64,000 nt of DNA from assembly GCF_900112175.1 (NCBI RefSeq), contig NZ_FOYT01000005.1, forward strand, positions 124,001-188,000. Direction: 5' to 3'. This document shows, one piece after another, positions 15,355 to 41,956 of this stretch. Under the pieces are notes generated by a model, which saw nothing but the letters and a program-made list of their open reading frames with translations, had not been told where the DNA came from and ran no database searches. The position numbers and the translations under genes were made by a program. How positions within the stretch are numbered: the stretch's first letter is position 1; each line of letters begins with the position of its first letter. The stretch comes from Halogeometricum rufum (GTDB lineage: Archaea; Halobacteriota; Halobacteria; Halobacteriales; Haloferacaceae).

Positions 15355-15435
15355 GTCGTGGACCCCGGCGACCCGTGCAGCAACCGCGAAATCGGCGGAC
15401 AGAACGCCTGTCGCAGCGACTCTCCGATGCAGCGC

Positions 15436-16922: not shown

Positions 16923-17134
16923 ACGTTCACGCTCGCCTTCGACCGGTATATCCGTCCCGGTACGGCGAGTCGAGGCCGTTCCGGTTACAGACGAACCCCT
17001 ATGGATGCAGATATGTGGCAGCGCTGAATACGAAGACTGCCGCACTAACGAGGCTCCGTTAAATTCTCGAGACCTACCTGTGGGATGTTGGGAAACTTTC
17101 TCGTCGTCTGCGGGGCGGCGACTGTGGGCGAGAG

Positions 17135-17791: not shown

Positions 17792-17810
17792 AGAAGTATC
17801 AAATGTGCGC

Positions 17811-17819
17811 AGAATTAAA
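17811..17819 (-). promoter_or_regulatory. TATA box for the Bat-type regulator
   Basis: The minus strand reads GTTTAATTC (revcomp of GAATTAAAC), about 25 bases before the regulator ATG. Confidence 0.55.
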
Positions 17820-17828
17820 CAACCAGGG

Positions 17829-17860
17829 CTCACCGCCATTTAAACTACACCACGGGTGAG
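17829..17860 (+). promoter_or_regulatory. Inverted repeat around a TATA box, likely operator for the nuoCD unit
   Basis: CTCACC (17829-17834) and GGTGAG (17855-17860) form an inverted repeat flanking CATTTAAAC, a good TATA box for the plus-strand nuoCD gene (start 17906). A regulator bound here would sit directly on the promoter. The divergent Bat-type protein is the obvious candidate, but this is inference. Confidence 0.45.
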
Positions 17861-17905
17861 GCAGTATGCCTACTGCACTACACCGAAAACTAGGGCCTGT
17901 GGACG

Positions 17906-19546
17906 ATGCAACGCCAACAACGCTCGACCACTGAGCAGTTCATAAACGAGGTGGTCTCAGCCCTCCCCGATAAGACCGTTCTCGGGCGTGATTCACACGA
18001 GAACGCCCCCGCACTCGTGATCCGTGCCGACCAGGTCCAGAAGGTTCTCTCGACACTTTACTCCGAGGTCGGACTCGATCACTGCTCGTGTGTGACTGCT
18101 CAGGAGTACGACGACCGCTTCGAGACGGTCTATCACCTCACCAGTTACGACGATCGGACGCGCGAGTTGTCCGTTGTCGTCCCGACGACGAAGGACGGCC
18201 CGGTCAGTGAGTCGGCTGCACCGGTTTACCGGACGGCCGAGTGGCACGAACGAGAATCCTACGACCTCGTAGGTATCGAGTACGAAGGTCATCCGGACCT
18301 CCGGCGCATCCTGCTCCCGGAGACGTGGCAAGGTCATCCGCTCCGCGAAGATTACGGTCGGAACCAGTCTCAGATCGTGGCGCTCCCCGCGCACGCCAAC
18401 CCTATCCAGAACGACAGTCGGCAGGGTGATACGATATTCCTCAATATCGGGCCTCACCATCCGTCGACCCACGGCGTGCTCCACTTAGAGGCAGTTCTCG
18501 ACGGCGAGCAGGTGGTGGACGTCGAGCCGGATATCGGCTATATCCATCGGTGCGAGGAACAGATGTGCCAGCAGGGGACGTACCGGCACCAGATTATGCC
18601 CTATCCCGACCGCTGGGATTGGGGCGGGGCGGGGCTGCTCAACGAGTGGGCCTACGCTCGCGTCGTCGAGGACCTGGCCGATATCGACGTTCCCGAGTAC
18701 GCTCAGGTCATCAGGACGATGAGCGCCGAACTGTCGCGCATCCTCTCGCACCTGTTAGCTACTGCCATGTACGCACTCGACGTGAGCGGTGAGTTCACCG
18801 CCACGTTCATGTACGGCTTCCGAGACCGGGACGCCGTTCAGAACCTCTTGGAGGACCTGACCGGCCAGCGCATGATGTTCAACTACTTCCGCGTCGGCGG
18901 TGTCGTCTGGGATGTCCCCGAGCCTCGAGAGGAGTTCTTCGAGGACGTGCGTGCTTTCACAAACAGCCTACCACAGAAGCTGGAAGAGTATCATAACCTG
19001 CTGACTAGCAACGAAGTCTTCCAAGTTCGTTGTGTGGATACTGGTGAGCTACCGCCACAGGTCGCCAAGCAGTACGGGGCCACCGGACCGGTCGCTCGCG
19101 GTTCCGGTATCGACTACGACCTCCGGCGGGATGACCCGTACGGATACTACGACCGCCTAGAGTGGGACGTCGTCACCGAGAACGGTTGCGACAACTTCGC
19201 CCGCGTGCTCGTCCGACTGCGGGAGATCGAGGAGTCAGCAGCGATCGTGGAGCAGTGCGTCGACCTCCTCGCGGATTGGCCAGAAGAAGAGCGAAGCGTC
19301 CAAGCTAACGTTCCCCGGACGTTGAAGCCGTCTGGGGAGTGTTACAGGGCCGTCGAAGGTGCCAAGGGCGAACTCGGGATTTACATCCGCGCCGACGGCA
19401 CCGATACGCCCGCTCGGTTCAAAATTCGCGGACCATCCTTCTCGAACCTGTCGGTACTACCAGCGATGGCAGAGGGAGAGTACGTTCCCGATCTCGTCGC
19501 GACTCTCGGAAGTCTCGATACCATCATCGGGGAGGTCGACCGATGA
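17906..19546 (+). CDS. nuoCD: NADH dehydrogenase-like complex I subunit NuoCD (stand-alone copy)
   Basis: 546 residues, a NuoC-NuoD fusion as usual in haloarchaea. The 30-kDa part (about 30-160) ends with ERESYDLVGIEYEGHPDLRR and GHPLREDY. The 49-kDa part starts TIFLNIGPHHPSTHGVLHLE and continues with GYIHRCEEQMCQQGTYRHQ, MPYPDRWDWGGAG and YGATGPVARGSGIDYDLRRD. The 49-kDa subunit forms the quinone pocket. The His of HPSTHG is kept; the usual DRxDY tyrosine is DRWDW here, which may be normal for haloarchaea. No other complex-I gene is nearby, so it is probably a second copy. It overlaps the next gene by ATGA. Confidence 0.92.
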   Translation: MQRQQRSTTEQFINEVVSALPDKTVLGRDSHENAPALVIRADQVQKVLSTLYSEVGLDHCSCVTAQEYDDRFETVYHLTSYDDRTRELSVVVPTTKDGPVSESAAPVYRTAEWHERESYDLVGIEYEGHPDLRRILLPETWQGHPLREDYGRNQSQIVALPAHANPIQNDSRQGDTIFLNIGPHHPSTHGVLHLEAVLDGEQVVDVEPDIGYIHRCEEQMCQQGTYRHQIMPYPDRWDWGGAGLLNEWAYARVVEDLADIDVPEYAQVIRTMSAELSRILSHLLATAMYALDVSGEFTATFMYGFRDRDAVQNLLEDLTGQRMMFNYFRVGGVVWDVPEPREEFFEDVRAFTNSLPQKLEEYHNLLTSNEVFQVRCVDTGELPPQVAKQYGATGPVARGSGIDYDLRRDDPYGYYDRLEWDVVTENGCDNFARVLVRLREIEESAAIVEQCVDLLADWPEEERSVQANVPRTLKPSGECYRAVEGAKGELGIYIRADGTDTPARFKIRGPSFSNLSVLPAMAEGEYVPDLVATLGSLDTIIGEVDR

Positions 19547-19851
19547 CGACGACCGCTTCACGGCGATGGGTGACCGACACCGGCCAGCAGGTAACCTGCA
19601 TCGCCTGTGGCGAGACGCTCGACCGAGAGGACGCCCGCGAGTACGACAAACACGGCGACCGCTGGAACCGCGAGGGAAAGAATTTCGAGTACCTCTGTAA
19701 GCCCTGCGACCGTGAGTACTGCCGCCAGAACCGCGACGGACTCGAAGAGACGCTCATAGCAGCCGACGCCGGCAAAACCGACCGCAAGACGTTCCTCAGA
19801 CGGTTCTGCGAGCTGACGACCGACAACAACGACGACAATGACCTCCAGTGA
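19543..19851 (+). CDS. Small zinc-ribbon protein (DUF7562-like)
   Basis: 102 residues. Two cysteine pairs, CIACG and CKPCDREYC, can hold one zinc in a ribbon, linked by REYDKHGDRWNREGKNFEYL. The rest is charged helix. I recall a haloarchaeal family of this form (DUF7562), without known function. The ATG overlaps the nuoCD stop (ATGA) and the 3' end overlaps the methyltransferase start by 14 bases, so the three genes are one translationally coupled operon. A role in assembling or tethering the NuoCD partner is inference. Confidence 0.88.
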   Translation: MTTTASRRWVTDTGQQVTCIACGETLDREDAREYDKHGDRWNREGKNFEYLCKPCDREYCRQNRDGLEETLIAADAGKTDRKTFLRRFCELTTDNNDDNDLQ

Positions 19852-20539
19852 GAAATCGAAGCAGACGAAGGGTCCCCACAATCGAATCGAGTCCGACGCG
19901 GCGTCGACTCACTCGATGTCGGTCTCGGACATCAAAGACGCGTATGCGGAGTACGCTGATTCGATGCATCGGCTCGAATGGCTCGACCGTGTTGTTATCG
20001 GTCGCTATCGTCAGGCCCGATTCGGAGATGTCGAGGGGAGAGTGCTCGACGTCGCCTGTGGCACTGGAACGAACTTCCGATACCTCCCCAACACGGTTGA
20101 CCTCGTCGGTATCGACGTTAGTCCAGAGATGCTGGCGAACGCCGAGGAACAACTCACCGAGTTAGAGATCGACGGCGATCTCCGGGAGATGGACGCACAG
20201 GAACTCGAATTCGCCGACGACAGTTTCGACGCGGTGATTTCCGCGCTGTCGACTTGTACGTTCCCCGACCCAATTGCTGCACTGCGCGAGATGGACCGCG
20301 TCTGCAAGCCTGAGGGAACGATTCGCCTCGTCGAACACGGACGTAGCGACGTCGGTCCAATCGCAAAGTATCAGAAATGGCGTGCCGACGCTCACTACGC
20401 GAGGAACGGCTGTCGCTGGACGCAAGAGCCGCGCGAAGTCGTCTCCGAGGCGGGCCTCGAGGTGCGGGAGACCAGCACTGGGCTCTTCGGCACGATCAGT
20501 ACCTTCGAGATACTTCCGAACCAGAGTGAAGAACGATAA
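19838..20539 (+). CDS. Class I SAM-dependent methyltransferase (UbiE-like)
   Basis: 233 residues. The SAM-binding motif is VLDVACGTGTNFRYL (69-83), followed by LVGIDVSPEML, DGDLREMDAQELEFADDSFD and the post-motif LREMDRVCKPEGTIRLVEHG. This order is that of UbiE/COQ5 and small-molecule methyltransferases. The partner NuoCD suggests a quinone or a quinone-like substrate, but this is inference. It is the last gene of the operon. A 766-base gap follows. Confidence 0.9.
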   Translation: MTSSEKSKQTKGPHNRIESDAASTHSMSVSDIKDAYAEYADSMHRLEWLDRVVIGRYRQARFGDVEGRVLDVACGTGTNFRYLPNTVDLVGIDVSPEMLANAEEQLTELEIDGDLREMDAQELEFADDSFDAVISALSTCTFPDPIAALREMDRVCKPEGTIRLVEHGRSDVGPIAKYQKWRADAHYARNGCRWTQEPREVVSEAGLEVRETSTGLFGTISTFEILPNQSEER

Positions 20540-21305
20540 TCGAACTGTCTTCCGGAGCGCTGGAGTGGCTCGCCGTCGGTTGCCCCCTGGCGATTGCAGG
20601 AGCAGTAATCAGGCTCCGCAGGTGGACGGTTCGCGGGTTGGACGAGACAGCACCTGTTCGATATTGATTCGCAACCCGGGCTTGAAGTCGGGACCTGGCG
20701 TGAACTGCCTGCGAGTAGCGCAGACTGGAGTTCTCGTGCCGGGGATAGTGGCGGATTTCGAGACCCTGCACGGTCGTTCACGCGGTGATTTCACTTGTTA
20801 CTGCCTCTCACCGGAATATATCCGAACGAACAGTACCAGAAGTTTACTCACTGTATCTCGAAGAGGGAACGTGTTTTATTTCACTGCGGTTTTTACCGTC
20901 AGAATGATCTGACTCACGGATGTAGCGATGCGCGGGTACTGAAGAACCCCAGTTACGTGAGTGCTGGATTGCTCACTGAGTTATCCCTGCTCGCTTCGGT
21001 AGCTACGAGTTGCGGGCGAAAATCGTAGTGAGACAGTAGGCTGATAACCGACTCCGAGTTACGAACTCCCATTTTACGTTGGATGATAGAACTTGAGTAT
21101 GCTGACGCGGTCAACTTCAGAGCACTCAGCTCAAAATAAACTCTTCGAGGCCACTGCCCGAGGTTGAACAGTCGGGTGGTAGCGAACGCACAGCAGTCAG
21201 ACCCGAGGCTGCTTTGAGTACCGGAACCGCCCGGCTGTTCCAGTTTCATATATCGTATCGCTCACACGACGAACGATTTACAGGGAGCGAGACAGAGGTA
21301 GGAAC
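20540..21305. other. Long non-coding gap in the accessory island
   Basis: No convincing gene in either strand; all open frames are short and lack family-like sequence. AT-rich patches occur near 20815-20900 and 21100-21140. A TATA element for the PAS-Bat gene lies at its right end. The stretch 20930-21060 gives a short open frame on both strands and could be a remnant of a mobile element, but I see no inverted terminal repeats. Confidence 0.6.
21277..21285 (+). promoter_or_regulatory. TATA box for the PAS/GAF Bat regulator
   Basis: GATTTACAG is centred about 25-27 bases before the ATG at 21306, as expected for a leaderless gene. Confidence 0.55.
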
Positions 21306-24300
21306 ATGTTTCCTGTCGGGTCTCACTCGCTGCAGGGGGCGGTAGTGGGGACGGAAACGCTCGTCGAGACCCTCGAAGGTCGGGAGAAGGAACGAGGTCT
21401 GTCACTCCACGTCGTCGATCCCGAAGTGGTGGAAGCGGGAGCACCGAGCGACGGAACGGCCGATTGCTTAGTGGTCGAAACGTCGGAATCGGACGATGAG
21501 AGCGAGACCGTCGTCGAGCGTTGGCAGGACGGGTGGCCGAACGTCCCTGTCGTGTTACTCGTCGCAGGCTGGGCTGACGAGCGAGTCGCAGACGCGGTCT
21601 CTGCGGGAGCGGCCGACGTTCTTCCGCGTAGACTCGTCGATACCGACCCCGACGTGGTCGTAGAGAGGATCGTCGAGGTCGTCGAACGGGAACACGCCCT
21701 GACGAGCTTTCGGGAGTTGTACGACGAGGGTTCGGAAGCCACGACGGTTCACGACGCGGAGACGGGCCACATGGTCCACGCCAATCGAACGTTCTGTGAA
21801 CTACTCGGGTACGACCGCGAGACGATTCGGACGATGCGGTTCGGGGAACTCATCGCTCACGTGCCGGGATACGACCACGAGCGTGCGATGGACGTCTTCT
21901 CCAGCGTCGCCGAGCGGGACGAGTCGCTGGAGATCCAGTGGCCACTCAAGACCGCCGACGGGGAGGTACGGTGGTCCGATGCACGGCTGTCGTCGGTTCG
22001 CGTCGGCAACCGGGAGGTCGTCCTCTCGACGTCGGTGGATATCACCGAGCGTCGCCGTCACGAACACCGATACGAGCAGGTGTTCGACAACGTCAACGAC
22101 GTCATCTCTATTCACGACCCGTGGGCCGAAGAGATGCTCGACGTCAACGAGACGATGAGCGAGTTGACCGGCTACGGCCACGAGACGCTCCTCGAGATGG
22201 ACGTTGGCGGGGTCAGCGACACCGACCTCGGGTTCAGCGAGGGCCGCGCGTACGAGATGCAGCAACGCGTCGCCGCCAGCGGCGAGTCAGAGACCGTCGA
22301 GTGGATGATAGAGACGGCGTCGGGGGACCGCCGACTGCTGGAGACGAACCTCGCGCCGGCCACCATCGACGGGGAAGATCGGGTGCTCGCGCTCTCGCGA
22401 GACGTGACCGAGCGACGAGAGTACGAACGCCGCCTCGAACGGGAACGGGACCGGCGATCGGTCCTGTTCCAGAACAACCCCGACCCGGTCATCAGAGTCC
22501 GATTCGAGGGCGGTGAGCCGATCATACGTGAGGTGAATCCGGCATTCGAGGAGGTGTTCGGCTTTCCTTCGGCCGACGTCGTCGGTACGAGCGTCGTCGA
22601 TGCGGTCGTTCCAGCCGACGAACGTGAGCAACACGAACGGCTCCGAGAGAAGGTCGTCCGTGGCGAACCGGTCGAGCGCGAAGCGCGGCGATTGACTGCC
22701 GACGGCGTCAGGAACTTCCAGTTCAAGGTTATCCACTTTGGGTCGAGCTCGGAGGACGACTCGGCGACCGACGCGTACGTGTGGTACACCGACGTTACGG
22801 ACCGGAAGCGGCGAGAAAAAACGGTCCGCCGCCTCCACGAGTCGACGGACGAAGTCCAAAACGCCGAGACGAGACAGGAGGTCTGCGAAGCGGTCGTCGA
22901 CGCCGCCGAAAACGTGCTGGGGCTCGCGAATCCGGCGTGCTGGGTCGAAGGAAAGAGCGAGGAGTCGCTGACATCGGTCGCCGGGTACGGAGACCAATGG
23001 GGCGGTGCCTCGTCCGACAACAACGCGAGCACGTTCGAACCGGGAGACGAGGGTTACGTGGCATACACGGAGAACGAGCCCCGGGTCGTCGACACGGCCG
23101 ACTGGGACGAAGGCGACCAGTCGAAGGCTGCGATCCTCCTCCCACTGGGCGACCACGGACTGTTCGGCGCGGCCGAACCGGGCGGTGGGGAGTTCGAGGC
23201 AGTCACTCGCACCGCCGCTCGCATCCTGGCCCGCCACGCGACGACCGCACTCGAGAGGGTCGAACGCGGCCGCGAACTCCGGGAGAGCGACCGGCGCTTC
23301 CGACTCATCGCCGACCGAATCGACGAGGTCATCTTCCTCTCGGAACCGGATTTCTCGGAGCTCTTCTACGTGAACGACGCCTACGAGACACTCTGGGGAG
23401 AGTCCGTCGAGAAGCTGTACGACGACCCACGAGGATTCATCGACAGCATCGACCCGCGGGACCGCGAGTCGTTCGAGGCCGACTTCGAGGAGATGGTCGC
23501 CGACATCGAACGCGGCGACGCCGACGAGAGCTACGTCTTCGAGTACCGAATTCGTCCCGACGGCGGGGACGTCCGGTGGGTCCGGGCCACCGGCTACCCC
23601 GTCGAACTGGAAGACGGAGACGACACGAGGTTCGTCGGTATCGTCGAAGACGTCACCGACCGGCGTGAACTCGAACGGACGTACCGAGGGGTGTTCGAGA
23701 ACGTCTCGGACGGACTCGTCATCCACGAGCCCGAATCGGGCCGGATAGTCGACGTGAACGAGCGATTCTGTCGGATGAACGGCTACGAGCGGGACGAACT
23801 TGTGGGCGAGACGATAGACGTCGTCACTGCCTCCGATCACGAGTACGAGCGTGCCGAGGCTCTTATCGAAGAGGCACGCGAGCAGGGCTCACAGCTGTTC
23901 GAGTGGCGAAACCGACGAAAGAACGGTGAGACGTACCCCGTCGAGGTTCACCTGAGCGTCGTCGACATCAGAGGGAACGAACGCGTGTTGGGGAGCGTCA
24001 GGGACGTGACCGAGCGAAAGCGTCGCGAGCGTGAGTACGAGCAGATATTCAACGGCGTTCAAGACGCCATCACCGTGTTCGACCCGTCGACTGGGGAGAT
24101 AGTCGAAGTCAACGATACCTATCGCGAGATGCTGGGATACGACGACCTCGGGACGATACGAGAGCTGGGAATCAGCGGTCTCAGCGTCAGCGACGAAGGG
24201 TACACCGAGGAACGGGGAACGAAACTCATCAGAGAGGTGGCTGAGACCGGCGAACCCCGGACCGTCGAGTGGCGGGGTGAACGAAAAGACGGCGAGTTGC

Positions 24301-26876
24301 TGTGGCTGGAGGCGAAGTTAGCGCCCGTCGAGATCGGTGGAGAGAGGCGGGTCGTCTCCATGCAACGGAACGTCACGGAACGAAAGCGTCGCGAACACGA
24401 GTACGAACAGATATTCGACGGCGTCCACGACGCCATCACGGTCCACGACTCGGACACGGCGGAGCTAGTCGACGTCAACGAGACGTTCTGCGACCTGCTC
24501 GGTTACGAGCGCGCGGAGATACTCGAGATGGGGGTCGACGGCTACACCCCCGAACAAGAGGGTTACTCCCTGGAATCCGGCCGGGAGTTCATCCACGAGG
24601 TCGTCGAGACGGGCGACCCGAAGCAGATCACGTGGCCGGTCGAGACGCGCGACGGGGAGCTACGCTGGCTGGATATCGAGGGGACGACGGTCGAGATCGG
24701 CGGGCGAGTCCGCTACGTGTCGATCGGACGCGACGTCACCGAACGTCGGCGCACCGAACGCAAACTCAGCGCGATCCTCGACCGGATCGACGAGGCGATA
24801 TTTCTCACCCGGGTCGAAGAGATCACGGCGGCCTCACAGTCACCGGACTACGTCAGTTCCGGCTACGAGTCGATCTGGGGACAATCCCTCGAACAGATCA
24901 GAGACTCCAACGAGGACGGGTTCTTCGGGACGTTACATCCCGACGACGAGGAGGAGTATCGGTCGACCGTCGAAGCGATCGTCGCCGACGTCGACGCCGA
25001 CGCCGCAGACGACCGATACTCGCAGGAGTACCGCATCGAGCGCACGGACGGAACGATCCGATGGGTGCAGTCCGACTACTATCCGACCGAGTGGGGCGCG
25101 GGCGAGACTCGAATCGTAATCGTCAGTCGGGATGTGACGGCTCGAAAAGCCCGCGAGCGACGTATCGCCTCGTTCGACGACGCGACCGACGACCTCGCGA
25201 GGGCCGACTCGCCCGAAGAAGCCGCGCGTCAGGCCGTCGAAGCGGCGACCGACCTGCTCGAACTCCCTGCAGTCGGGGTTTTGCTGTACGATGACGACGA
25301 CGGCGTCCTCCGCCCCGAGGTACTCTCGGGGCAGTTCCCCGAGGCGGTCGCGACCGACAGCGTCGGTCCGAGTGACGGGGCGTTGTGGGAGGTGTTCGCC
25401 ACCGGAACGATCGTCGCCTCGGACGGCGGAACCAGTCGCTCCGGCTTCGTCGGCGCGACTGACGCCAGACCAGACACGCTGTCGGACCTCGAAGCGTGGC
25501 GTGCGATGGCCCTCGGTAACCATGGCGTCCTTCTCGTCGGCGCTCCCGAGCAGTCGCTCGACTCGGACACGATACAGGCCGCTCACGTCCTCGCGGCGAC
25601 GCTCGAAGCCGCTTTCAGCCACCTTCAGAGCAGAGAGCGACTCGCCGCACAGGAAGAACGCCTCCGGACACAGACCGAACGCGCGGACCGACTGGACCGG
25701 ATCGCACACCTCGCCCAACAGGTGGAAGCCGCCATCACAGACGCCTCCGCCCCTGCGGAGGTCGAACAGGAGATCTGTGATCGCCTCGCCGGTTCCGGCC
25801 CGTACGACCTCGCCTGGACGGGCGGCATCGACGTCGGCACGGATCGACTCGCTGCACGAACCGTCGTCGGGGCGACTGACCAGTACGTCGACGAGATGGC
25901 CCTGACCACGACCGACAGCACCGCCGACCCGCATCCGACCGTCACGACGTGGCGAACCGACGAGGTCTGCGTGGCGGATTCGATCGTCGACGACGGTCCG
26001 ACGGGAGACTGGCGACGGATCGTCCTCAGCGAAGGGTATCAATCGCTGTGCGCGGTTCCGTTGACGTACGACGGTATCACGCACGGTGTGTTGACTATCG
26101 GGAGGGATACGCCGAACGCGTTCGACGAACGGGAGCGAGCGATGCTGTCGCAACTCGGAACCTCGATCGGATACGCTCTCGCGGCCATCGAGCGGAGGCG
26201 GGCGCTGGAATCCGACGAGTCGGTCGAACTGGAGTTCCGCGGGTCGAACGTGGCCCTCCCGTTCGCTCGCGCCGCCGCCGCCGCCGACTGTCGGGTCACG
26301 CTCGTACGGACGGTCGCGCGGCAGGACGGACCGACCAGCGTCTACGTCCGCTTCGAGGGCGATCTCCCCGACAACACTGCACGAGTGGCGGACCGGACGT
26401 TTTCGGGAGACGTCAGCGTCGTGAGCGAGGCGTCGTCGAAGACCGTGTTCGAGGTCAGAGCCGACGAGTGGTTCGGGTCGCCGCTAGCCGAGTACGGCGG
26501 GGTGATTCGCGATGCCTCGGCCGACGCCGACGAAACGACTCTCACCGTCGAGGTTCCCGGGGAGGCGGACGTGCGGTCGTTCGTCGGCCGACTGCAGGAG
26601 ATGGCACCGTCGCTCGAACTCGTCGCCAGGCGGCAACACCGACGGCGTGACCGAACGCCGGCGGAACTCTCCGACCGCGTCAGAGCGGAACTCACCGACA
26701 GGCAGTTCGAGGTCGTACAGACGGCCCTGTCGGCGGGCTACTTCGAGTGGCCCCGAGAGAACGACGGTGGCGAGGTGGCCGACCGACTCGGCATCACCCA
26801 GCCGACGTTGAACAAACACCTCCGACTCGCCGAGAAGAAGACGTTCGGTCTCCTGTTCGACACCGAGTCGGTATGA
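21306..26876 (+). CDS. Giant PAS/GAF Bat-type transcription factor
   Basis: 1856 residues. Rough domain order: receiver-like N-terminus (1-130), PAS1-PAS3 (135-508), GAF1 (510-655), PAS4-PAS8 (657-1275), GAF2 (1277-1455), GAF3 (1457-1625), Bat-associated domain (1630-1795) and the C-terminal bacterio-opsin-activator HTH (RQFEVVQTALSAGYFEWPRE, then VADRLGITQPTLNKHLRLAE). PAS units end in the usual DVTERKRRE-type linkers. No histidine kinase or ATPase domain is present, so the signal should go straight to DNA. PAS5-PAS7 are closely alike and look like internal duplications. It is convergent with the FAD enzyme gene. The target is unknown. Confidence 0.93.
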   Translation: MFPVGSHSLQGAVVGTETLVETLEGREKERGLSLHVVDPEVVEAGAPSDGTADCLVVETSESDDESETVVERWQDGWPNVPVVLLVAGWADERVADAVSAGAADVLPRRLVDTDPDVVVERIVEVVEREHALTSFRELYDEGSEATTVHDAETGHMVHANRTFCELLGYDRETIRTMRFGELIAHVPGYDHERAMDVFSSVAERDESLEIQWPLKTADGEVRWSDARLSSVRVGNREVVLSTSVDITERRRHEHRYEQVFDNVNDVISIHDPWAEEMLDVNETMSELTGYGHETLLEMDVGGVSDTDLGFSEGRAYEMQQRVAASGESETVEWMIETASGDRRLLETNLAPATIDGEDRVLALSRDVTERREYERRLERERDRRSVLFQNNPDPVIRVRFEGGEPIIREVNPAFEEVFGFPSADVVGTSVVDAVVPADEREQHERLREKVVRGEPVEREARRLTADGVRNFQFKVIHFGSSSEDDSATDAYVWYTDVTDRKRREKTVRRLHESTDEVQNAETRQEVCEAVVDAAENVLGLANPACWVEGKSEESLTSVAGYGDQWGGASSDNNASTFEPGDEGYVAYTENEPRVVDTADWDEGDQSKAAILLPLGDHGLFGAAEPGGGEFEAVTRTAARILARHATTALERVERGRELRESDRRFRLIADRIDEVIFLSEPDFSELFYVNDAYETLWGESVEKLYDDPRGFIDSIDPRDRESFEADFEEMVADIERGDADESYVFEYRIRPDGGDVRWVRATGYPVELEDGDDTRFVGIVEDVTDRRELERTYRGVFENVSDGLVIHEPESGRIVDVNERFCRMNGYERDELVGETIDVVTASDHEYERAEALIEEAREQGSQLFEWRNRRKNGETYPVEVHLSVVDIRGNERVLGSVRDVTERKRREREYEQIFNGVQDAITVFDPSTGEIVEVNDTYREMLGYDDLGTIRELGISGLSVSDEGYTEERGTKLIREVAETGEPRTVEWRGERKDGELLWLEAKLAPVEIGGERRVVSMQRNVTERKRREHEYEQIFDGVHDAITVHDSDTAELVDVNETFCDLLGYERAEILEMGVDGYTPEQEGYSLESGREFIHEVVETGDPKQITWPVETRDGELRWLDIEGTTVEIGGRVRYVSIGRDVTERRRTERKLSAILDRIDEAIFLTRVEEITAASQSPDYVSSGYESIWGQSLEQIRDSNEDGFFGTLHPDDEEEYRSTVEAIVADVDADAADDRYSQEYRIERTDGTIRWVQSDYYPTEWGAGETRIVIVSRDVTARKARERRIASFDDATDDLARADSPEEAARQAVEAATDLLELPAVGVLLYDDDDGVLRPEVLSGQFPEAVATDSVGPSDGALWEVFATGTIVASDGGTSRSGFVGATDARPDTLSDLEAWRAMALGNHGVLLVGAPEQSLDSDTIQAAHVLAATLEAAFSHLQSRERLAAQEERLRTQTERADRLDRIAHLAQQVEAAITDASAPAEVEQEICDRLAGSGPYDLAWTGGIDVGTDRLAARTVVGATDQYVDEMALTTTDSTADPHPTVTTWRTDEVCVADSIVDDGPTGDWRRIVLSEGYQSLCAVPLTYDGITHGVLTIGRDTPNAFDERERAMLSQLGTSIGYALAAIERRRALESDESVELEFRGSNVALPFARAAAAADCRVTLVRTVARQDGPTSVYVRFEGDLPDNTARVADRTFSGDVSVVSEASSKTVFEVRADEWFGSPLAEYGGVIRDASADADETTLTVEVPGEADVRSFVGRLQEMAPSLELVARRQHRRRDRTPAELSDRVRAELTDRQFEVVQTALSAGYFEWPRENDGGEVADRLGITQPTLNKHLRLAEKKTFGLLFDTESV

Positions 26877-26895
26877 GTCGTTCCCGTCGGCCCTG

Positions 26896-28143
26896 CTACT
26901 CGAAGGCGTTTCGCTGCAGTGCGAACAGGTCGGGGCCACAGAACGACCCCAACGCGACCGTGCGGAGCAACCCGAGCGCGGAGAGCCGCGATTCAGGGGT
27001 ACGCACGGGATACTCGTGTTCGGCCCGAAGCTTCGTTGCCTGCCGGCGAACCTCCGAGAGCCGGTCTCGGCGGTGTGCGGCGTAGGAGCTGACCGCATCC
27101 GAGACGGACGTCGAGTCCTGTCGGAGGTCGACGACGAGTTGCACCGCGTCTTCGATGCCGAGCGGAACTCGGAGCCCACTCGCCGGGGCGACGGGATACG
27201 CAGACGGTCCGCAAAAGGCGATGCGGCCGGTTCCCCACCACCTTCGTTCGGCACCCGAGCCACGAAGACGGAGTTGTCGAACGGCCCGCGGTTCCGTCTC
27301 GGCCACCGCACTCCCGAGTCTATCCGGTTCGATGGACAGAGCTTCGGTCCACTCGGTCCCGTCGAGCGCCGTCGGCATCGCGCCCTCTGGTGTCGTAATT
27401 CGAACCACGCTCTCCGTCCCGTCCGGGAGCGGTATCCGTTGTGCGAGGGCGTCCGAGCACCAGACCTCTCGTACGCCGTCGGAGGAGCTATCGACGTCGA
27501 CAGCTGTCTCGTGCTGCCGAAGCCGGGTGAACGACGACGACGACCGATCCGCCCGGCGGACCACAGAGGTACCGCTCGCATCGACGACCGCGTCGAACCA
27601 CTCCCGGACACCGTCGTCGAACTCGACGACGACGCCGTCGTCCTCGTCGGACAGTGCACCGACGCGTCGGTTCGTTCTGTTCTGCGTCACGGGAAGTTGC
27701 GCTTCGAGTGCCCGACGGAGGTCTCGCGTCCGAACGACGACTGGTTCGGCTTCGCCCGCCGCCTCTCGCGAGAGGGTGGCGTGAGAGCGTCGCGAATCGA
27801 TTCGCTCGACCGAGACAGTGTCGACGACTGTCGCGATGTCTCGGAGCGAGACGCCGACCGTCCGGAGAACGCCGAGCGTCGACGGCCACAGGAGGGTAAC
27901 GCGCGACTCGACGACCTGGTCGGGTCTCTCGAGCAGGAGCGGGTCGTATCCGGCGTCTCGAAGAAGCGCACAGAGGAACACGCCGACGACGGTGTCTCCG
28001 ACGACGAGCACTTGCCGGTCGGGGCCAGTGCCGACCGTCTTCGCGGTCGTCAGCCACTCGAGGGAGGGGTGAACTGGGACGCCTGCACTATCTCGCCGGT
28101 CGGACGCTTTGGATACGAAGTCGGCCCGGTGCGTCTCGTTCAC
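26896..28143 (-). CDS. FAD-dependent monooxygenase-like oxidoreductase
   Basis: About 415 residues from GTG at 28143; the start is uncertain because no ATG lies near the conserved region (an in-frame ATG at 28326 would add 61 low-complexity residues). The fold is that of the p-hydroxybenzoate hydroxylase group: Rossmann start RQVLVVGDTVVGVFLCALLR with acidic LLLERPD, a middle FAD segment FDAVVDASGTSVVRRAD, and the C-terminal ribityl segment RIAFCGPSAYPVAPASGLRV. The usual GxGxxG is degenerate (G-D-T-V-V-G) and the usual GD of the third motif is CGPSA. The substrate is unknown. Confidence 0.72.
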   Translation of the reverse strand: MNETHRADFVSKASDRRDSAGVPVHPSLEWLTTAKTVGTGPDRQVLVVGDTVVGVFLCALLRDAGYDPLLLERPDQVVESRVTLLWPSTLGVLRTVGVSLRDIATVVDTVSVERIDSRRSHATLSREAAGEAEPVVVRTRDLRRALEAQLPVTQNRTNRRVGALSDEDDGVVVEFDDGVREWFDAVVDASGTSVVRRADRSSSSFTRLRQHETAVDVDSSSDGVREVWCSDALAQRIPLPDGTESVVRITTPEGAMPTALDGTEWTEALSIEPDRLGSAVAETEPRAVRQLRLRGSGAERRWWGTGRIAFCGPSAYPVAPASGLRVPLGIEDAVQLVVDLRQDSTSVSDAVSSYAAHRRDRLSEVRRQATKLRAEHEYPVRTPESRLSALGLLRTVALGSFCGPDLFALQRNAFE

Positions 28144-28518
28144 CGGACCGACGGACGGTCCCGAGCGCTCCGACTCGGTGGCCTCGTTCGGAGGTCTCCG
28201 GCTGGATTGGCTTCCTTTCGAGTGTGAAAGCTTCGTTCTCCGCGGTTCGTCCGGGTGACAGGACGGCGATAAACGACGGTTCGGACGTCCCCGGTCGCCT
28301 CTCCGCGGCTGACACTCGTCTCTCATCCGTACCTCAGACTGTAACCCACTCGTACGTAACGAACCTCTCCGTGTTTCAGAGTCTGCAACAGTTCGGCGTC
28401 CCAGCGACCGTGAGAACTGGTGACAGAGTAATATAGCTAGCCACCAGCCCGAACCGGAGGAAACGTTCGTTGACACCAGTTTTGGGGCCGTGGAACGAGA
28501 ACGACTGTCCGATACGAA
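28144..28518. other. Intergenic region between divergent FAD enzyme and winged-helix genes
   Basis: Apart from possible 5' extension of the FAD gene, I see no gene. A TATA-like AGTAATATAG at about 28428-28437 faces the plus-strand regulator gene, giving a leader of roughly 55-60 bases. Confidence 0.5.
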
Positions 28519-28917
28519 ATGTCCCTCGCGATGTCTCGACGCGAAGAAACGGAGGCGAAGAAACCGAACGTGACCGAGGAACGGGGTGACACGGACCTCC
28601 TGTCGCTGCTGAACACCGAGTACACGCAGACCATCCTCGAACTGATTCGAGCCGAACCGCGGACGGCGCGGGAGATCATCGAAGGATGCGGTGCGTCCAA
28701 GCCGACGGTGTATCGACGTCTGAACGACCTCGAAGACGCCGGACTCGTCGAGTCGGGGACCGCCCTTGCCGTCGACGGACACCACCGACGGACGTTCGTG
28801 TCGACACTCCGGTCGATTTCAGTCGACGTGTCTGACGACGGCGTCGCCGTTACCGTGACGAAGAGCAACTCGACGCGACTCTCATCACAGAACGGGCAGG
28901 TCTCCGCCGGAGACTGA
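28519..28917 (+). CDS. Winged-helix transcriptional regulator (copy 1)
   Basis: 132 residues. One winged HTH: LLNTEYTQTILELIRAEPRT, then REIIEGCGASKPTVYRRLND, then LEDAGLVESGTAL with a wing DGHHRRTFVS. A C-terminal strand segment (ISVDVSDDGVAVTVTK) may form a dimerisation domain. It is of the ArsR/HTH_20 type common in haloarchaea. It is paralogous to the gene at 29139 (shared PTVYRRL/STVYRRL and GHHRR). In-frame ATG at 28531 is an alternative start. In other haloarchaea such genes often precede a small membrane protein; none is seen here. Confidence 0.86.
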   Translation: MSLAMSRREETEAKKPNVTEERGDTDLLSLLNTEYTQTILELIRAEPRTAREIIEGCGASKPTVYRRLNDLEDAGLVESGTALAVDGHHRRTFVSTLRSISVDVSDDGVAVTVTKSNSTRLSSQNGQVSAGD

Positions 28918-29052
28918 CGTTCTCTCTCCCGAGAGCGACGACTCTCACGTCGAGATACCGTGGTCTCCGCCGTCAGTCTCGAGAATGCAGTCGTAGCGTG
29001 TCTCCTCGATGCCGTCTGGTGTCCGACGATACGGACGACACAATAGTACTAG

Positions 29053-29070
29053 CCCCCCGAATTCGGGGGG
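29053..29070. promoter_or_regulatory. 18-bp perfect palindrome upstream of regulator copy 2
   Basis: CCCCCCGAATTCGGGGGG is a perfect 18-base palindrome 69 bases before the GTG of the next regulator gene. It could be an operator for a dimeric winged-helix protein or, read as RNA, a GC-rich hairpin ending the previous transcript. It is not followed by a T-run, which argues against a simple terminator. Confidence 0.55.
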
Positions 29071-29138
29071 ACACGACTCACGTTGACGGTAGCTTTCAGT
29101 CCCAGTAGTGTGAGTCGTTTCGTGACGGTGGGTGAACG

Positions 29139-29558
29139 GTGCAGACAACATCGACTCGACACGGCAGTACAGCATCGAATCAAACGAACAGTTCGAACTG
29201 CTCGCTCTCGACGCTGGTCGAACTACTCGGTGACGAGTACGTACGCGAGTGTCTGGCGGCGATTCGGAGCGAACCGAAGGCCGCCCGAACCATCGCCGAG
29301 GAGCGTGACATCTCTCGATCGACGGTGTACCGACGGCTCGAACGCCTTCAGGACGCCGGCCTAGTCCGTACGGAGATGACGTACGACGAACGCGGACACC
29401 ACCGTCGGGTTTTTGATGCCGTCGTCGAGGGCGTCGAACTCGAACTCGACGGCGACGGGTTCTCCGTCCGCGTCTCGACCTTCGACAGTGATTCGTCTCG
29501 CTCTGAGTCCGGTCGGGATGCAGTCACCGAACCCGTCGGTTCCCCCTCGAAGTACTGA
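29139..29558 (+). CDS. Winged-helix transcriptional regulator (copy 2)
   Basis: 139 residues starting at GTG. One winged HTH: VELLGDEYVRECLAAIRSEP, then RTIAEERDISRSTVYRRLER, then LQDAGLVRTEMTY with wing ERGHHRRVFDAVVE. The C-terminus continues as a strand (GVELELDGDGFSVRVSTFDS) and a Ser-rich tail. The same architecture as the gene at 28519 indicates duplication followed by clear divergence. The GTG start is supported by the extent of conserved sequence rather than by a clear TATA box. Confidence 0.84.
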   Translation: MQTTSTRHGSTASNQTNSSNCSLSTLVELLGDEYVRECLAAIRSEPKAARTIAEERDISRSTVYRRLERLQDAGLVRTEMTYDERGHHRRVFDAVVEGVELELDGDGFSVRVSTFDSDSSRSESGRDAVTEPVGSPSKY

Positions 29559-30542
29559 CTCCCCTCCCGGCTTTCTGGCGGAGACACCTCGTGTAACCGT
29601 CCTCTCAGCATCTTCGGGACAGCGACGGTGGCAGCCGTCTCGATATTCGTCTTCGCGATAATTTCGTGGCGAGTACGTAGCTTCTGACTCAGAAACAGTG
29701 GAGCGCGTTTAATCTACGCCCACCGAGTAGAGACGTGTGTCCGCCCCCGGTCGGAGGCGGAATCGGAGTATCCGACCACTTGCCCGTCTCAGATCCCACC
29801 CAACGCTCCCCCCATCCCGCTCCCTTTCCGGTCCGCCCCTTCGGCCCTCTGCCCTGGGCTGCTCTCTGTTGGCCGTTTCGTTCTCTTTCACCCGAGAAGC
29901 GGAACCGCCCGGCACGGAGAACGGATGTACTGACGGAGTCTCGGTCGGACCGCCCGTTCTACCGAGGGAGCGTGCACCGGTGCGCTTCGGCAGCGTCTCC
30001 TCCGCAAATCGCGTCACGCCGCGGCAGAAACGTTCGGAAGTCGTACTCTCCGAGACGTCAAATGCGGAGTGGAGTTCTGTGAGCGCTCACCACGCGGGAT
30101 GTGACGTAGACGGATTTGATCGTCCGAAGGTGCGTCTCGCACTGGGTATCGCTCAGCGACGTGCGTTCCGCGTCTTACTCGGTCCGCTCGTACAATTGGT
30201 CGATGTCGAACGGGACATCGTGGTCGCAGCAGCAGCAAGCGTGTGTCGGTTCGACCGTTGCCCCGGTCGGAGAACTGCGCCCGACACCGCCACCACTGGA
30301 ACGCCCCCGACGAATCCCAGCGGGATTGAAACTGCCAATGGATGGTATCAGCGGAGACTCCCGAGTTACAGACGAACTCCAGCGAGACTGAAGCAGGACG
30401 GAGGTGCCCAGTATCGTGAGGGAATCCGCGGTAGCGTCGTGTCGGGATTCATCCGCGTCCGACGACGGGCTTCGGCGGCTTCTCACGGACCGAGACTCAC
30501 TACGCGCGGTTATGCCGTTTTCGAGCGTCTAGTCGGACGGTC
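29559..30542. other. Long gap at the right end of the accessory island
   Basis: No convincing gene. A minus-strand frame ending at 30175 closes with four consecutive cysteines (ATVEPTHACCCCDHDVPF and on), and the overlapping frame just upstream looks like a hydrophobic segment (AVSIPLGFVGGVPVVAVSGA). Together they suggest a small secreted or metal-binding gene broken by a frameshift, but the evidence is weak. The rest is GC-rich with short low-complexity frames. Confidence 0.5.
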
Positions 30543-31574
30543 ATGAACCGAACGATGCGGACGGTGGCGGGTGGAATCGGGCTGCTCCTCGGAGCGGGCG
30601 GGCTCTCGCTGTGGCGGTGGAAGCGGGACCGGCTCGACGAACTCGCGGCGGGGAGCGAACTGGTGGAGACGAGGCGCGGAGCCATCGAAGTCGCCCGGCG
30701 GGGCGCGGGCGACCCGGTTCTGGTTCTCCACGGCGACCCCGGCGGGTACGACCAGGCGCTCCAGTTGGGCGAGGCGGTGTCCCCGGACGGGTTCGAGATT
30801 ATCGCGCCGTCGCGCCCCGGCTACCTGCGGACGCCGCTGGGCGACAACCGCTCCCCGGGCGAACAGGCGGCGCTGTTGGACGCGATGCTGGACGAACTCG
30901 GAATCGAGCGGACGCTGGTGGTCGGACTCTCGGGTGGCGGGCCGTCGGCGCTCCACCTCGCTGCCGGCTATCCGGAACGGGTGTCGGGGGTGATTCTCGG
31001 CTCCGCGGTCACCACCGCGTTCGACGAGCGAATGTTCGACACGGGCAATCCGCTCCTCGACCCGCTGCTCACGAGCGCGCCCGTCCTCGACGTGCGGTCG
31101 GGCCTGATGGCGGTGCTGCGGCGCGTGAACCCGGACGGCTTCGTCCGGGGGATGCACGCCGGTCTCTCGACGCTGGAGGGCGAGGAGCTGGCGTCGTACG
31201 TCGACTTCGTCACGACGAACCCGGAACAGCGGGGCCGCGCGCTCGACTTCGCGTCGACGATTCTGCCGACGAGCGTGCGCGTCGAGGGGACGCTGAACGA
31301 CGAGCGCTGGTTCCGCGAACTCCCGCTGGTGGAGTACGACAGCATCCGGTGTCCCGTGCTGGTGATTCACGGCGAGTTCGACGGTGCGGTCCCCATCGCG
31401 CACGCCGAGTTCGTGGCGGACGCGGTGCCGGACGCGAGCCTCCTGCGCCTGAAGGCCGACCACCTGCTCTGGCTCGGACCCGACGCCGAACGTGCCGCAG
31501 AGGGGGTGCGCGCGTTCATTGCGTCGGTCGCCGACGCGACAGCGTCGAGCGGGGACGGTCCCGTCGTCGACTGA
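30543..31574 (+). CDS. Alpha/beta hydrolase
   Basis: 343 residues. A hydrophobic N-terminus (TVAGGIGLLLGAGGLSLWRW) suggests a membrane anchor facing either side. The hydrolase fold shows the oxyanion segment VLVLHGDPGGYDQ, the nucleophile elbow VVGLSGGGPSAL (Ser130), the acid in CPVLVIHGEFDGAVP and the catalytic His in KADHLLWLG, so the triad is complete. The family includes esterases, haloperoxidase-like enzymes and epoxide hydrolases; the substrate is open. GC content returns to the backbone level here, marking the end of the island. Confidence 0.9.
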   Translation: MNRTMRTVAGGIGLLLGAGGLSLWRWKRDRLDELAAGSELVETRRGAIEVARRGAGDPVLVLHGDPGGYDQALQLGEAVSPDGFEIIAPSRPGYLRTPLGDNRSPGEQAALLDAMLDELGIERTLVVGLSGGGPSALHLAAGYPERVSGVILGSAVTTAFDERMFDTGNPLLDPLLTSAPVLDVRSGLMAVLRRVNPDGFVRGMHAGLSTLEGEELASYVDFVTTNPEQRGRALDFASTILPTSVRVEGTLNDERWFRELPLVEYDSIRCPVLVIHGEFDGAVPIAHAEFVADAVPDASLLRLKADHLLWLGPDAERAAEGVRAFIASVADATASSGDGPVVD

Positions 31575-31623
31575 GTGGCCGAACGCGGACGGTTGGTCGC
31601 GGTCCGGCGGAGCGCGGCCCGGC

Positions 31624-31854
31624 CTATCGTCCGGTTCCTGAGGTGCTGTGTCGCTCGCGGTACTCGCGGAGTCCTCTCCGCGCCGCGCGTCGAGACTCGA
31701 ACCCGAATCCGACGGCCTGACAGTCCGTTCGCGGGCAGATCCAGCCGTACGTGTCAGTCGCGTCGTCCGCGAACACGTCGGTGTCGCCCCCACAGCGGGG
31801 ACAGTCGAACCCCCACAGGAACGTATAGTCGACGTCGCGGCGTCTGCCTGGCAT
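31624..31854 (-). CDS. Small zinc-finger protein
   Basis: 76 residues from ATG at 31854 (a GTG lies 6 bases upstream). Two zinc-binding half-sites, CPRCGG and CPRTDCQAVGFGF, are separated by DTDVFADDATDTYGWI. The basic C-terminal helix (RRAARRGLREYRERH) could contact nucleic acid. It belongs to the many small haloarchaeal CPxCG proteins, which are often real but functionally unknown. It is convergent with the hydrolase gene. Confidence 0.75.
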   Translation of the reverse strand: MPGRRRDVDYTFLWGFDCPRCGGDTDVFADDATDTYGWICPRTDCQAVGFGFESRRAARRGLREYRERHSTSGTGR

Positions 31855-32014
31855 CGTCACGCTCGTCTCCCGGGCACCCGGAACGGAAAGCGTCGTAGCT
31901 ATGCGGATAGCGCGTCGGGAAACGCGGCGCTAGATAGCGAAGTGCGCGGAGCCGCGACGGTCCGTCTTGCGGTAACGTTTAACATGGCGGCACCCCAACA
32001 GTGCGTCGTCAACG

Positions 32015-36474: not shown

Positions 36475-37479
36475 ATGAGCGACACAAAAATCAGAGAGTA
36501 CGTGAGTACCGACCGGCGGCGGACGGACGCCACCGAGACGGCGGCGGAGAGCGAGGACGAGAGCGAAACGGAGTCGGAGATACAGGCGTGTCCGGAGTGC
36601 GGCGGCACGCTGGTGACCGACGAGGCCCACGGCGAGACGGTCTGCAGCGACTGCGGTCTCGTCGTCGAGACGGACGCCGTCGACCGCGGTCCGGAGTGGC
36701 GCGCGTTCGACTCGGCCGAGCGCGACTCGAAGTCCCGCGTCGGCGCACCGACGACCCGGATGATGCACGACAAGGGGCTGTCGACCAACATCGGCTGGCA
36801 GAACAAGGACGCCTACGGCAAGGCGCTCTCTTCGAGCCAGCGCGAGCAGATGCAGCGGCTCCGCACGTGGAACGAGCGCTTCCGCACCCGGAACTCCAAG
36901 GAGCGCAACCTGAAGCAGGCGCTCGGCGAGATAGACCGGATGGCGTCGGCGCTCGGACTGCCGGAGAACGTCCGCGAGACGGCCAGCGTCATCTACCGCC
37001 GCGCGCTGGACGACGACCTGCTCCCCGGCCGCTCCATCGAGGGCGTCGCCACCGCGGCGCTGTACGCCGCGGCGCGGCAGGCCGGCACGCCCCGGTCGCT
37101 CGACGAACTGGAGACCGTCTCCCGCGTCGACAAGATGGAGCTGACCCGGACGTACCGCTACGTCGTCCGCGAACTGAAGCTCCAGATCGAGCCCGCCGAC
37201 CCCGAGCAGTACGTCCCGCGGTTCGCCTCGGAACTCGACATCTCCGACGAGGCCGAACGACAGGCGCGCGAACTGCTCCGGAACGCGAAGGAGGCCGGCA
37301 TCCACTCGGGCAAATCGCCCGTCGGCCTCGCGGCGGCCGCCGTCTACGCGGCCGCGCTGCTCACCAACGAGAAGGTGACGCAGAGCGAGGTGAGCGAGGT
37401 GGCCAACATCTCGGAAGTGACCATCCGCAACCGGTACAAGGAGCTGCTCGAAGTGGACGATGCGGGCCTGTTCGCCTGA
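36475..37479 (+). CDS. tfb: Transcription initiation factor B (TFB)
   Basis: 334 residues. TFB bridges TBP at the TATA box, the BRE and RNA polymerase. An acidic N-terminus is followed by a zinc ribbon (CPECGG and CSDCGLV, about 42-66), the B-finger/core region (GPEWRAFDSAER, RVGAPTTRMMHDKGLST) and two cyclin repeats (IYRRALDDDLLPGRSIEG and GLAAAAVYAAALLTNE, ending in SEVTIRNRYKELL). Haloarchaea carry several TFB paralogues. The start at MSDTKIREY was chosen over an in-frame ATG 24 bases upstream. A long leader suggests regulated expression. Confidence 0.97.
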   Translation: MSDTKIREYVSTDRRRTDATETAAESEDESETESEIQACPECGGTLVTDEAHGETVCSDCGLVVETDAVDRGPEWRAFDSAERDSKSRVGAPTTRMMHDKGLSTNIGWQNKDAYGKALSSSQREQMQRLRTWNERFRTRNSKERNLKQALGEIDRMASALGLPENVRETASVIYRRALDDDLLPGRSIEGVATAALYAAARQAGTPRSLDELETVSRVDKMELTRTYRYVVRELKLQIEPADPEQYVPRFASELDISDEAERQARELLRNAKEAGIHSGKSPVGLAAAAVYAAALLTNEKVTQSEVSEVANISEVTIRNRYKELLEVDDAGLFA

Positions 37480-38843: not shown

Positions 38844-39263
38844 TCACCCCTCGTCGACGAGGTCGTCGAACTCCGGGATGAGGTCGTCGTCGGACGCCGC
38901 GTCCCGTTCCTCCTCTTCCTCCTCGTCGGACGGGAGCACCTCGACTCGCAACACCTTCAGGGGGACGTTCTCCAGTCGCTGGCCGATCTCCTTTCGCGCG
39001 ATGCGGGCGGCGTGCTCCTCCTGTTCGACGTTGAACACGGTCATCTCCAGTTCGAGCGCCACCAACGCCTCGTCGGCGGCGACGAACGCGGGCGGGAGGT
39101 CCTCGCCCGACGGGGACGTGCGCGAGCCCATGCTAATCTCGACGTAGTTGAGGTCCGGGTTCAGCATCTCACCCGTCTTGGCGATGGCGATGCGAATCGC
39201 CTCGTCCGCCGTCTCGACGTCGTAGACGGGAACCGCGGCCTCGACGACGACTCTGCAGTCCAT
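38844..39263 (-). CDS. DUF555 (UPF0212) family protein
   Basis: 139 residues. MDCRVVVEAAVPVYDVETAD begins the conserved domain, with AKTGEMLNPDLNYVEISMGS and VFNVEQEEHAARIARKEIGQ further on. The family is archaeal and uncharacterised; some members carry zinc-binding cysteines, but here only one cysteine (Cys3) remains. The C-terminal 25 residues are an acidic tail (PSDEEEEEERDAASDDD). Confidence 0.93.
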   Translation of the reverse strand: MDCRVVVEAAVPVYDVETADEAIRIAIAKTGEMLNPDLNYVEISMGSRTSPSGEDLPPAFVAADEALVALELEMTVFNVEQEEHAARIARKEIGQRLENVPLKVLRVEVLPSDEEEEEERDAASDDDLIPEFDDLVDEG

Positions 39264-39370: not shown

Positions 39371-40291
39371 TCACTCGCCGCCCGCGCGGAGGTAGTAGAA
39401 CACGTACGTCTGCGCGTACCCGGCGTAGTCGCCGCCGAGGCGGTCCCGGATGGCGCGCGACGTCTCGGCGTAGGTCCCGGCGTCGCACTCGGGGTAGTGG
39501 TCGGCGATGGCCGTCTGAATCCACGTGTCTAGCGGGACGGCCTCGAGGAACCCCAGCGAGAACAGCAACACGCAGTCGGCCACCTTGTCACCGACGCCGA
39601 CGAACCGCTTCAGCGACTCGCGCGCCTCCTCGTACGGCAGTTCGAGGGCCTCCGTCGGGTGCGCCTCGCCGTCGGCGACCATCTCGGCCGTCCGCCGGAC
39701 GTACGGCGCGCGGTAGCCCAGACTCTGGTCGCGCAGTTCCGACTCGGTCCGCGCCGCCAACTGGTCGGGCGTCGGGAACGCCCGGTACGTCTCGCCCGCG
39801 ACGGTCACCGCGTCGCCGTACTCCCGCGCGAGGCGCATCTGCATCCCGTGGATGCGCGAGACGCGCATCTGCGCCGAACAGATGAACGAGACGAGGCAGG
39901 CGAACGGCGGGTCGCGGACGAGGCGCATCCCCTCGTAGGCGTCGTACGCGCGTTCGAGCAGTGGGTCGTCCGGCGTCGCGTCGAGTATCGCCGTCAGGTC
40001 GTCGTCCAGTCGGAGCAGGTGCGTGAGAATCGGCACCGCGTCGGCCGTCGCCTCCCACTCCAACCGACCGTCGGTCTGTCGGACGCGGACGACGACCCGG
40101 TCGTCGGAGACGCCCGCGATGGGGGGGACGACCGTCTCGTACCACGCGTCGCCGCCGTGGACGTCCATCGACTCGTACATCCGGCCGTCCGCGCGGTCCC
40201 AGAGGTACGACTGCCCGCTCTCCAACGTGGCCTGCAGGTCGAACGGCCCGTCGAGGTCCGCCAGCGGAATCGCCCCGGATTCGAACTCCAT
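39371..40291 (-). CDS. ogg: 8-oxoguanine/N-glycosylase, OGG1-like
   Basis: 306 residues. It removes oxidised guanine (or alkylated bases) from DNA in base excision repair. The N-terminal beta domain includes DLQATLESGQSYLW, the OGG1-like start. The helix-hairpin-helix region is LKRFVGVGDKVADCVLLFSL, with the catalytic Lys in GDK, and EAVPLDTWI supplies the catalytic Asp. This K/D pair makes it a bifunctional glycosylase/lyase. Substrate preference cannot be read from the sequence. It is probably monocistronic. Confidence 0.9.
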   Translation of the reverse strand: MEFESGAIPLADLDGPFDLQATLESGQSYLWDRADGRMYESMDVHGGDAWYETVVPPIAGVSDDRVVVRVRQTDGRLEWEATADAVPILTHLLRLDDDLTAILDATPDDPLLERAYDAYEGMRLVRDPPFACLVSFICSAQMRVSRIHGMQMRLAREYGDAVTVAGETYRAFPTPDQLAARTESELRDQSLGYRAPYVRRTAEMVADGEAHPTEALELPYEEARESLKRFVGVGDKVADCVLLFSLGFLEAVPLDTWIQTAIADHYPECDAGTYAETSRAIRDRLGGDYAGYAQTYVFYYLRAGGE

Positions 40292-40359: not shown

Positions 40360-41316
40360 TCACCGGTTCCGACCGAGGGGGAACCGCACTCGGTCGGGTT
40401 CCTCGTTGAACCGTGCGACGATCTCCTCGTACAGCGCGTTCTGGTTCCGAGTTATCTGCCTGGGGTGTGAGAGAAAGCGGAGTCGGAGCGTCAGCCACGA
40501 CTCCTCCTGCACGACGTTGACCGTCGGCTCGGCGTTCACGTCGAGGTCGACGGGCGTCTCCGCCAGTTCGTTGCGGTAGCGGTCGACGGCGGCGTTCATC
40601 TCGTCGCCCAGCAGGTCGTCGGCCGTCTCGACCATCACCGACCGCGCGAACGCGAGGTCCGTCTCGTAGGCGACCTGAACGCTCACCTCCGTCCAGACGT
40701 GCGCGAACAGGGCGGAGTAGTTCATCACCTGCGTGGAAAGCACCTGCGCGTTCGGGACCGTGACGACCCGACCGGACGGTTGCCCCGTGGAGACGAGCGG
40801 TCCGTTCACCTCCCACAGCGTCGTCGCCAGAAATCCCACGTCCACGACGTCGCCGCGCGTCTCGTCTATCTCGACTCGGTCGCCGACGGAGAACGGCCGT
40901 TTGAGCATGACGTAGAACTAGCCGACGAACGACAGCAACGGCTGTTGGAGCGCGAACGTGACGGCGAATCCGACGATACCGAGCGAGAAGAGGAGTCCGA
41001 CCCACTGGTCGGTGGCGACGCCGAGGACGGCCACGACGCCGACCAGTCCGAAGGCGAGTCGGAGGACGTTCCGCACGTCGTGCGCCCGGCGCTTGCTGTC
41101 GAGTCGGGCGGCGACGGCCCGTTCGACGACGAGGTACGCCCCGGCGACGACGAGTGCAGTGGCGACGACGGTCAGTCCCCGAGAGACGACGTACGTGAGG
41201 GCGAACTCACCGACCGTCGCGTCGCCGAACGCCGAGAGCGTGGAGACGGCGCTGGCGGCGACGAGCAACGCGAGGGCGAGTCCGAGCGAGAGGTAGCCGA
41301 CGCGACGACGGAGCAC
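40360..41316 (-). pseudogene. MscS-family mechanosensitive channel gene interrupted by an in-frame TAG
   Basis: One frame codes for a complete channel except for TAG at 40918-40920. Upstream: 132 residues with three membrane helices ending VTFALQQPLLSFVG. Downstream: FYVMLKRPFSVGDRVEIDET, the MscS beta domain, and a C-terminal alpha/beta vestibule ending near 40360. In related channels the residue at the stop is normally an aromatic, often Trp (FVGW-FYVM), so TGG to TAG by one transition explains it. Without readthrough the N-terminal half alone is unlikely to form a channel. It could be a fresh pseudogene, a sequencing error or a readthrough site. The full length would be 318 residues. Confidence 0.85.
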
Positions 41317-41395: not shown

Positions 41396-41956
41396 ATGCG
41401 CACCGCGTTCGTCGCCTTCGACGACATGACCGCGCTCGACTTCGTCGGGGCGTTCGACCCGCTGACCCGGCTGGACACGATGGACCTCGCCCCGTTCCCG
41501 TTCGAGTGGGACGTCTGCGCCCGCGCGGAGACGGTGACGGCGACGGCGAACCTCCGGTTCGAGGCCGACAGCGTCGGGGAGTCGCTCGCCGACTACGACC
41601 TGGTCGTCGTCCCCGGCGGCGCGGGCACGCGGGAGTTGCAGACGGACGACCACTTCCTCGCGTGGCTTCGGACCGCCGACGCGGACCTCATCGCGTCCGT
41701 CTGTACCGGGTCGCTGCTCCTCGGCGCGGCGGGATTCCTCGACGGGAAGACGGCGACGACGCACCCCGCGGCGACCGACGAACTCGCCGCGTACTGCGAG
41801 GTGAGCGACGAACGCGTCGCGGACGAGGGTGACGTCGTGACCGCCCGCGGCGTCACCTCCGCGCTGGACCTCGGTCTCCACCTCGTGGAGCGACTGACCG
41901 ACGCCGAGACGCGAGCCACGGTCGCAGAACAGATGGACTACCCGGAGCGGGTCTGA
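41396..41956 (+). CDS. DJ-1/PfpI family protein
   Basis: 186 residues. A class I glutamine-amidotransferase-like fold. The nucleophile elbow is IASVCTGSLLLGAAGFL (Cys103), preceded by LVVVPGGAGTREL and followed by THPAATDELAAYC. The family includes stress chaperones, glyoxalases and proteases. It resembles the isonitrile-hydratase/AraC-like subgroup by its CTG motif, but no HTH domain is attached. It is divergent from the broken mscS gene across 79 bases. Confidence 0.9.
   Translation: MRTAFVAFDDMTALDFVGAFDPLTRLDTMDLAPFPFEWDVCARAETVTATANLRFEADSVGESLADYDLVVVPGGAGTRELQTDDHFLAWLRTADADLIASVCTGSLLLGAAGFLDGKTATTHPAATDELAAYCEVSDERVADEGDVVTARGVTSALDLGLHLVERLTDAETRATVAEQMDYPERV

Follow-up and report, generated by a model that had tools for sequence, protein, structure and literature searches.

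An MscS-like gene of Halogeometricum rufum is interrupted by a single in-frame TAG, and the question is whether the gene has been lost, whether the letter is an error, or whether a channel is produced in spite of the stop. The gene lies in a window of 64,000 nucleotides of contig NZ_FOYT01000005.1, the whole stretch of DNA that was analysed, and is one of 11 MscS-domain loci returned by a genome-wide domain search.

The interrupted frame and its place in the channel fold

The gene is encoded on the minus strand, a point on which the first-pass annotation was silent, and runs from a GTG start at 41316 to a TGA stop at 40360, comprising 318 codons plus the stop. The TAG occupies codon 133 (40920–40918, minus strand; CTA on the plus strand at 40918-40920) in place of a tryptophan TGG, and the coding strand around it reads ...TCG TTC GTC GGC TAG TTC TAC GTC ATG CTC AAA CGG CCG TTC... 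When the TAG is read as W, translation gives a single unbroken MscS frame of 318 aa, in which the profile PF00924 (MS_channel_2nd) matches residues 127-201 across the stop with 56.4 bits (cut-off 20.2, E 3.3e-15). The genome domain search independently flags '1 TAG' within this mscS-like PF00924 match, and residues 2-318 align end to end with the orthologues of the genus at 76-79% identity. Since the frame is the same on either side of the TAG and aligns over its whole length, it is not a chance one. Translation, profile match and orthologue alignment together confirm the earlier description of an in-frame TAG without a frameshift.

The stop leaves two fragments, both on the minus strand. The N-terminal one (132 aa followed by the TAG, 40918..41316) holds the transmembrane part up to the middle of the pore helix, as judged by alignment to solved MscS chains, and gives no Pfam match on its own. 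The C-terminal one is a 182-aa frame (40360..40908) that contains the beta-domain and opens at an ATG 9 nt past the TAG; its expression through reinitiation is possible. The locus is flanked by two intact genes that served as controls, one for an 8-oxoguanine DNA glycosylase with OGG_N and HhH-GPD domains (39371..40291, minus strand) and the other for a DJ-1/PfpI family protein (41396..41956, plus strand).

E. coli MscS, for which chains such as 2oau and 6rld have been solved, carries the same PF00924 domain, and the TM3-beta-domain motif FALQQPLLSFVG.FYVMLKRPFSVGDR found here is like its counterpart in that protein. In the alignment to solved MscS chains, codon 133 (W133) falls on Gly121 of pore helix TM3b; where E. 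coli MscS has this Gly, the H. rufum gene has a stop instead of Trp and is interrupted. As the stop falls in TM3b, truncation splits the membrane part from the beta-domain, and what is removed is the beta-domain together with the C-terminal part. Two features identify a member of the MscS family. A PF00924 beta-domain above the curated cut-off is found when the gene is read across the stop; a continuous chain from the transmembrane part through TM3 to the beta-domain is not, with the TAG placed by alignment in the middle of TM3b. The ancestral gene thus qualified as an MscS channel, and the present one does not unless it is read through.

The codon in relatives and selection on the gene

The codon at the position of the stop is TGG in all 32 of the closest aligned orthologues, which come from the genus, the family, Haloarcula amylovorans, Haloarcula pellucida and Halapricum hydrolyticum; a contig scan for further orthologues returned Haloarcula and Halapricum relatives only. 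The Trp that the first-pass annotation expected at this site therefore stands on firmer ground than was claimed. Its broader statement, that MscS relatives often have Trp or another aromatic residue here, holds for the haloarchaeal orthologues, all of which carry Trp, and fails for E. coli MscS with its aligned Gly. The sister species has GGC TGG where H. rufum has GGC TAG, so that one transition explains the stop, which agrees with the change proposed earlier.

When presence of the gene was scored at E <= 1e-60 across 170 genomes of the family, it was matched in 100, and an internal stop was seen solely in the H. rufum copy (0 of the 99 others). The remaining 70 genomes gave no match at this threshold, which indicates that the orthologue is often absent. 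No split version of the gene was found among the relatives. The lesion is thus missing from functional orthologues (no internal stop in 99, TGG in 32 of 32), as is expected of an inactivating lesion in a pseudogene. A search of a plasmid collection found no channel match above 60% protein identity, and hence no sequence of the same species there.

Selection was studied with a codon model having a separate omega for the H. rufum branch, applied to 51 genes of the neighbourhood, each represented by four or five members of the genus. The ratio of own to background omega was 2.77 for mscS, the highest of the 51 (2dlnL 6.18), against a median of 1.18 and values of 1.06 and 0.78 for the flanking glycosylase and DJ-1/PfpI genes, respectively. 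In a fit with nine taxa, the own omega was 0.162 and that of the background 0.073 (2dlnL 6.27); the omega of mscS is nonetheless far below 1, and omega=1 was rejected (2dlnL 18.1, nine taxa). A branch model in which the gene is functional and then neutral assigned about 6% of the branch to the neutral part, with zero neutral time marginally disfavoured (2dlnL 2.8). The low omega and this small fraction suggest that the gene was kept for most of the lineage and, if the letter is real, was lost late. With regard to constraint after the lesion, the omega ratio is raised and ranks first of 51, yet the neutral fraction has an approximate 95% range of 0-24%. Amino-acid changes are only slightly in excess, a first rank among 51 being unremarkable when many genes are tested, and this excess constitutes modest evidence for a real relaxation. 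The opposite extreme to mscS was seen in the gene at 38844-39263, whose own-branch omega is far below that of the background (ratio 0.16, 2dlnL 7.8).

Explanations for the TAG

The gene is probably a recent nonsense pseudogene, in which an MscS gene belonging to a multi-copy family was inactivated by the change from TGG to TAG at codon 133. The TGG of the relatives, the single transition, the intact frame and the modest gene- and lineage-specific relaxation make this the best-supported of the options listed by the first-pass annotation. The nonsense mutation would have hit the mscS paralogue recently, and translation would then halt in the pore helix and leave a fragment without the beta-domain, so that no channel would come from the gene; redundancy among the MscS genes would allow the loss to be tolerated. 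We infer that the TAG letter is real in the organism, and the truncated fragment is presumably non-functional. No further lesions were seen in the interrupted mscS and, given also the small excess of amino-acid changes, the data are explained almost equally well by a sequencing error or by a polymorphism of very recent origin.

That the organism has TGG and an intact gene, the TAG being an error of sequencing or assembly, is unlikely, and this possibility, also listed earlier, ranks below recent loss of the gene. It would account for a lone substitution in an otherwise intact frame, for the TGG in all relatives and for the purifying selection under which mscS still mostly stands. The assembly, however, is 99.8% complete in 7 contigs and appears clean in a census of interruptions, in which 248 kb of the contig were compared with the contig of the sister species using a filter on frames for GC by codon position. 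For 125 of the 131 sister-contig genes, an orthologue was found in the 248 kb, giving about 48,000 aligned residues. Among these 125 alignable genes, no mid-gene stop was seen other than the TAG of mscS. The remaining stops were located in 5' extensions, at the ends of frames, or between two genes for which the sister species alone has a fused frame. No clear case of a gene-internal frameshift was seen among these 125 genes, the single frameshift call being in a weakly aligned N-terminal stretch (36946-37089 on the H. rufum side) with stops of its own, which was judged to be a 5' extension. An error would moreover have created CTAG (40918-40921, containing the interrupting TAG), a tetramer strongly under-represented in the window (19 observed, 52-195 expected) and known to be under-represented in all haloarchaeal genomes analysed (PMC6471742), which argues mildly against a random error. 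Nor would an isolated error yield the highest relative omega of the neighbourhood. We know of no mechanistic link between the creation of CTAG and the loss of mscS. As to the distribution of this word, 12 of the 19 copies in the window fall in 15313-31930, a stretch with local G+C values as low as 0.59-0.65 that is possibly foreign or integrated.

Production of a functional protein despite the stop, either by basal or regulated UAG readthrough or by assembly into a channel of the 132-aa chain and a reinitiated 182-aa chain, is very unlikely, and a working MscS at low dose, made from the two chains through reinitiation at the ATG or by efficient UAG readthrough, is more improbable still. The frame is open on either side of the TAG, with an ATG only 9 nt beyond it, the gene was under purifying selection for most of the branch, and Haloferax volcanii is known to use termination-reinitiation where the genes of a pair overlap (PMC6728339). 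Nevertheless, the stop is found in no relative and the ATG is an ordinary internal Met codon in them, so that nothing looks adapted for reinitiation; own-branch omega past the stop is raised (0.145 versus 0.059) rather than lowered. The RNA past the stop is no more stable than shuffled sequences: the 101-nt RNA beginning just before the TAG folds less well than its shuffles (z +1.5), and a structured readthrough element was rejected on this ground. A search for known RNA elements near the locus gave two matches, both below the gathering score.

Recoding of the TAG by pyrrolysine or a suppressor tRNA, for which its in-frame position within a coding gene could speak, has a next to negligible probability. 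The PylS_Cterm profile for PylRS gives only matches below the cut-off, as it does in most control genomes, and no CUA anticodon occurs in the 47 tRNA genes found. One tRNA first missed by ARAGORN has an intron, and a loop without CTA. As the set of 47 is incomplete, lacking the Trp tRNA and some Pro and Ala tRNAs, and unusual or intron-bearing tRNAs may escape detection, the lack of a CUA anticodon is strong rather than absolute evidence. TAG is also an ordinary stop here, terminating 32 of the 164 predicted genes of the contig, and the relatives carry Trp at the site. Pyrrolysine or suppressor decoding was thus rejected, as its machinery was not found. Neither conservation of the stop in relatives nor, in the search for PylRS, a CUA anticodon and an RNA fold, any known decoding machinery or stimulatory element was observed. 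Special decoding of the TAG has no support, and the regulated readthrough that the first-pass annotation had named as a less likely option finds none either.

Possible tolerance of the loss and the intact dacZ-mscS2 pair

The genome contains 10 other PF00924 genes, all without an internal stop, and the interrupted paralogue is only 26-35% identical to the other MscS genes found. One of these is the intact MscS-like gene (PF05552 and PF00924) at 10627-11445 on the minus strand, which had been reported to lie downstream of dacZ and is indeed real. It adjoins the diadenylate cyclase gene dacZ (DACZ_N and DAC domains; 12260-11445, minus strand), the start and stop of the two genes overlapping at 11445. 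This is the mscS2 arrangement, described as an operon with dacZ in Haloferax volcanii (PMC6741144), whose mscS2 has the same dacZ neighbour; the mscS2-like gene of the window is intact and distinct from the interrupted mscS.

Deletion of mscS2 in H. volcanii, which left growth at standard and high salt normal and showed its effect at low salt alone (PMC6741144), is a comparable tolerated loss, although of another MscS gene. Haloarchaeal pseudogenes with an in-frame stop have been reported in, for example, Haloquadratum walsbyi (PMC3119063), and resemble the H. rufum mscS in that a gene intact in relatives is lost. Unlike them, the H. rufum gene carries one lesion only, which suggests that the pseudogene is very young. 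Recent loss would add a further example of single MscS paralogues being dispensable in haloarchaea, and it warns that an isolated in-frame TAG should not be taken for recoding. In database entries for this assembly, the gene should be labelled a nonsense-interrupted mscS; the case has little import beyond annotation.

In the same part of the window, 8731-10590 holds two separate minus-strand genes, one of 257 aa without a Pfam match and the other encoding a PAS-histidine kinase of 344 aa. The pair corresponds to one continuous frame of 629 aa in the sister species (G001), which, by its sequence, would be a fusion or a readable junction in that species; in other members of the genus, the open frame of the first gene is only 258-271 aa long.
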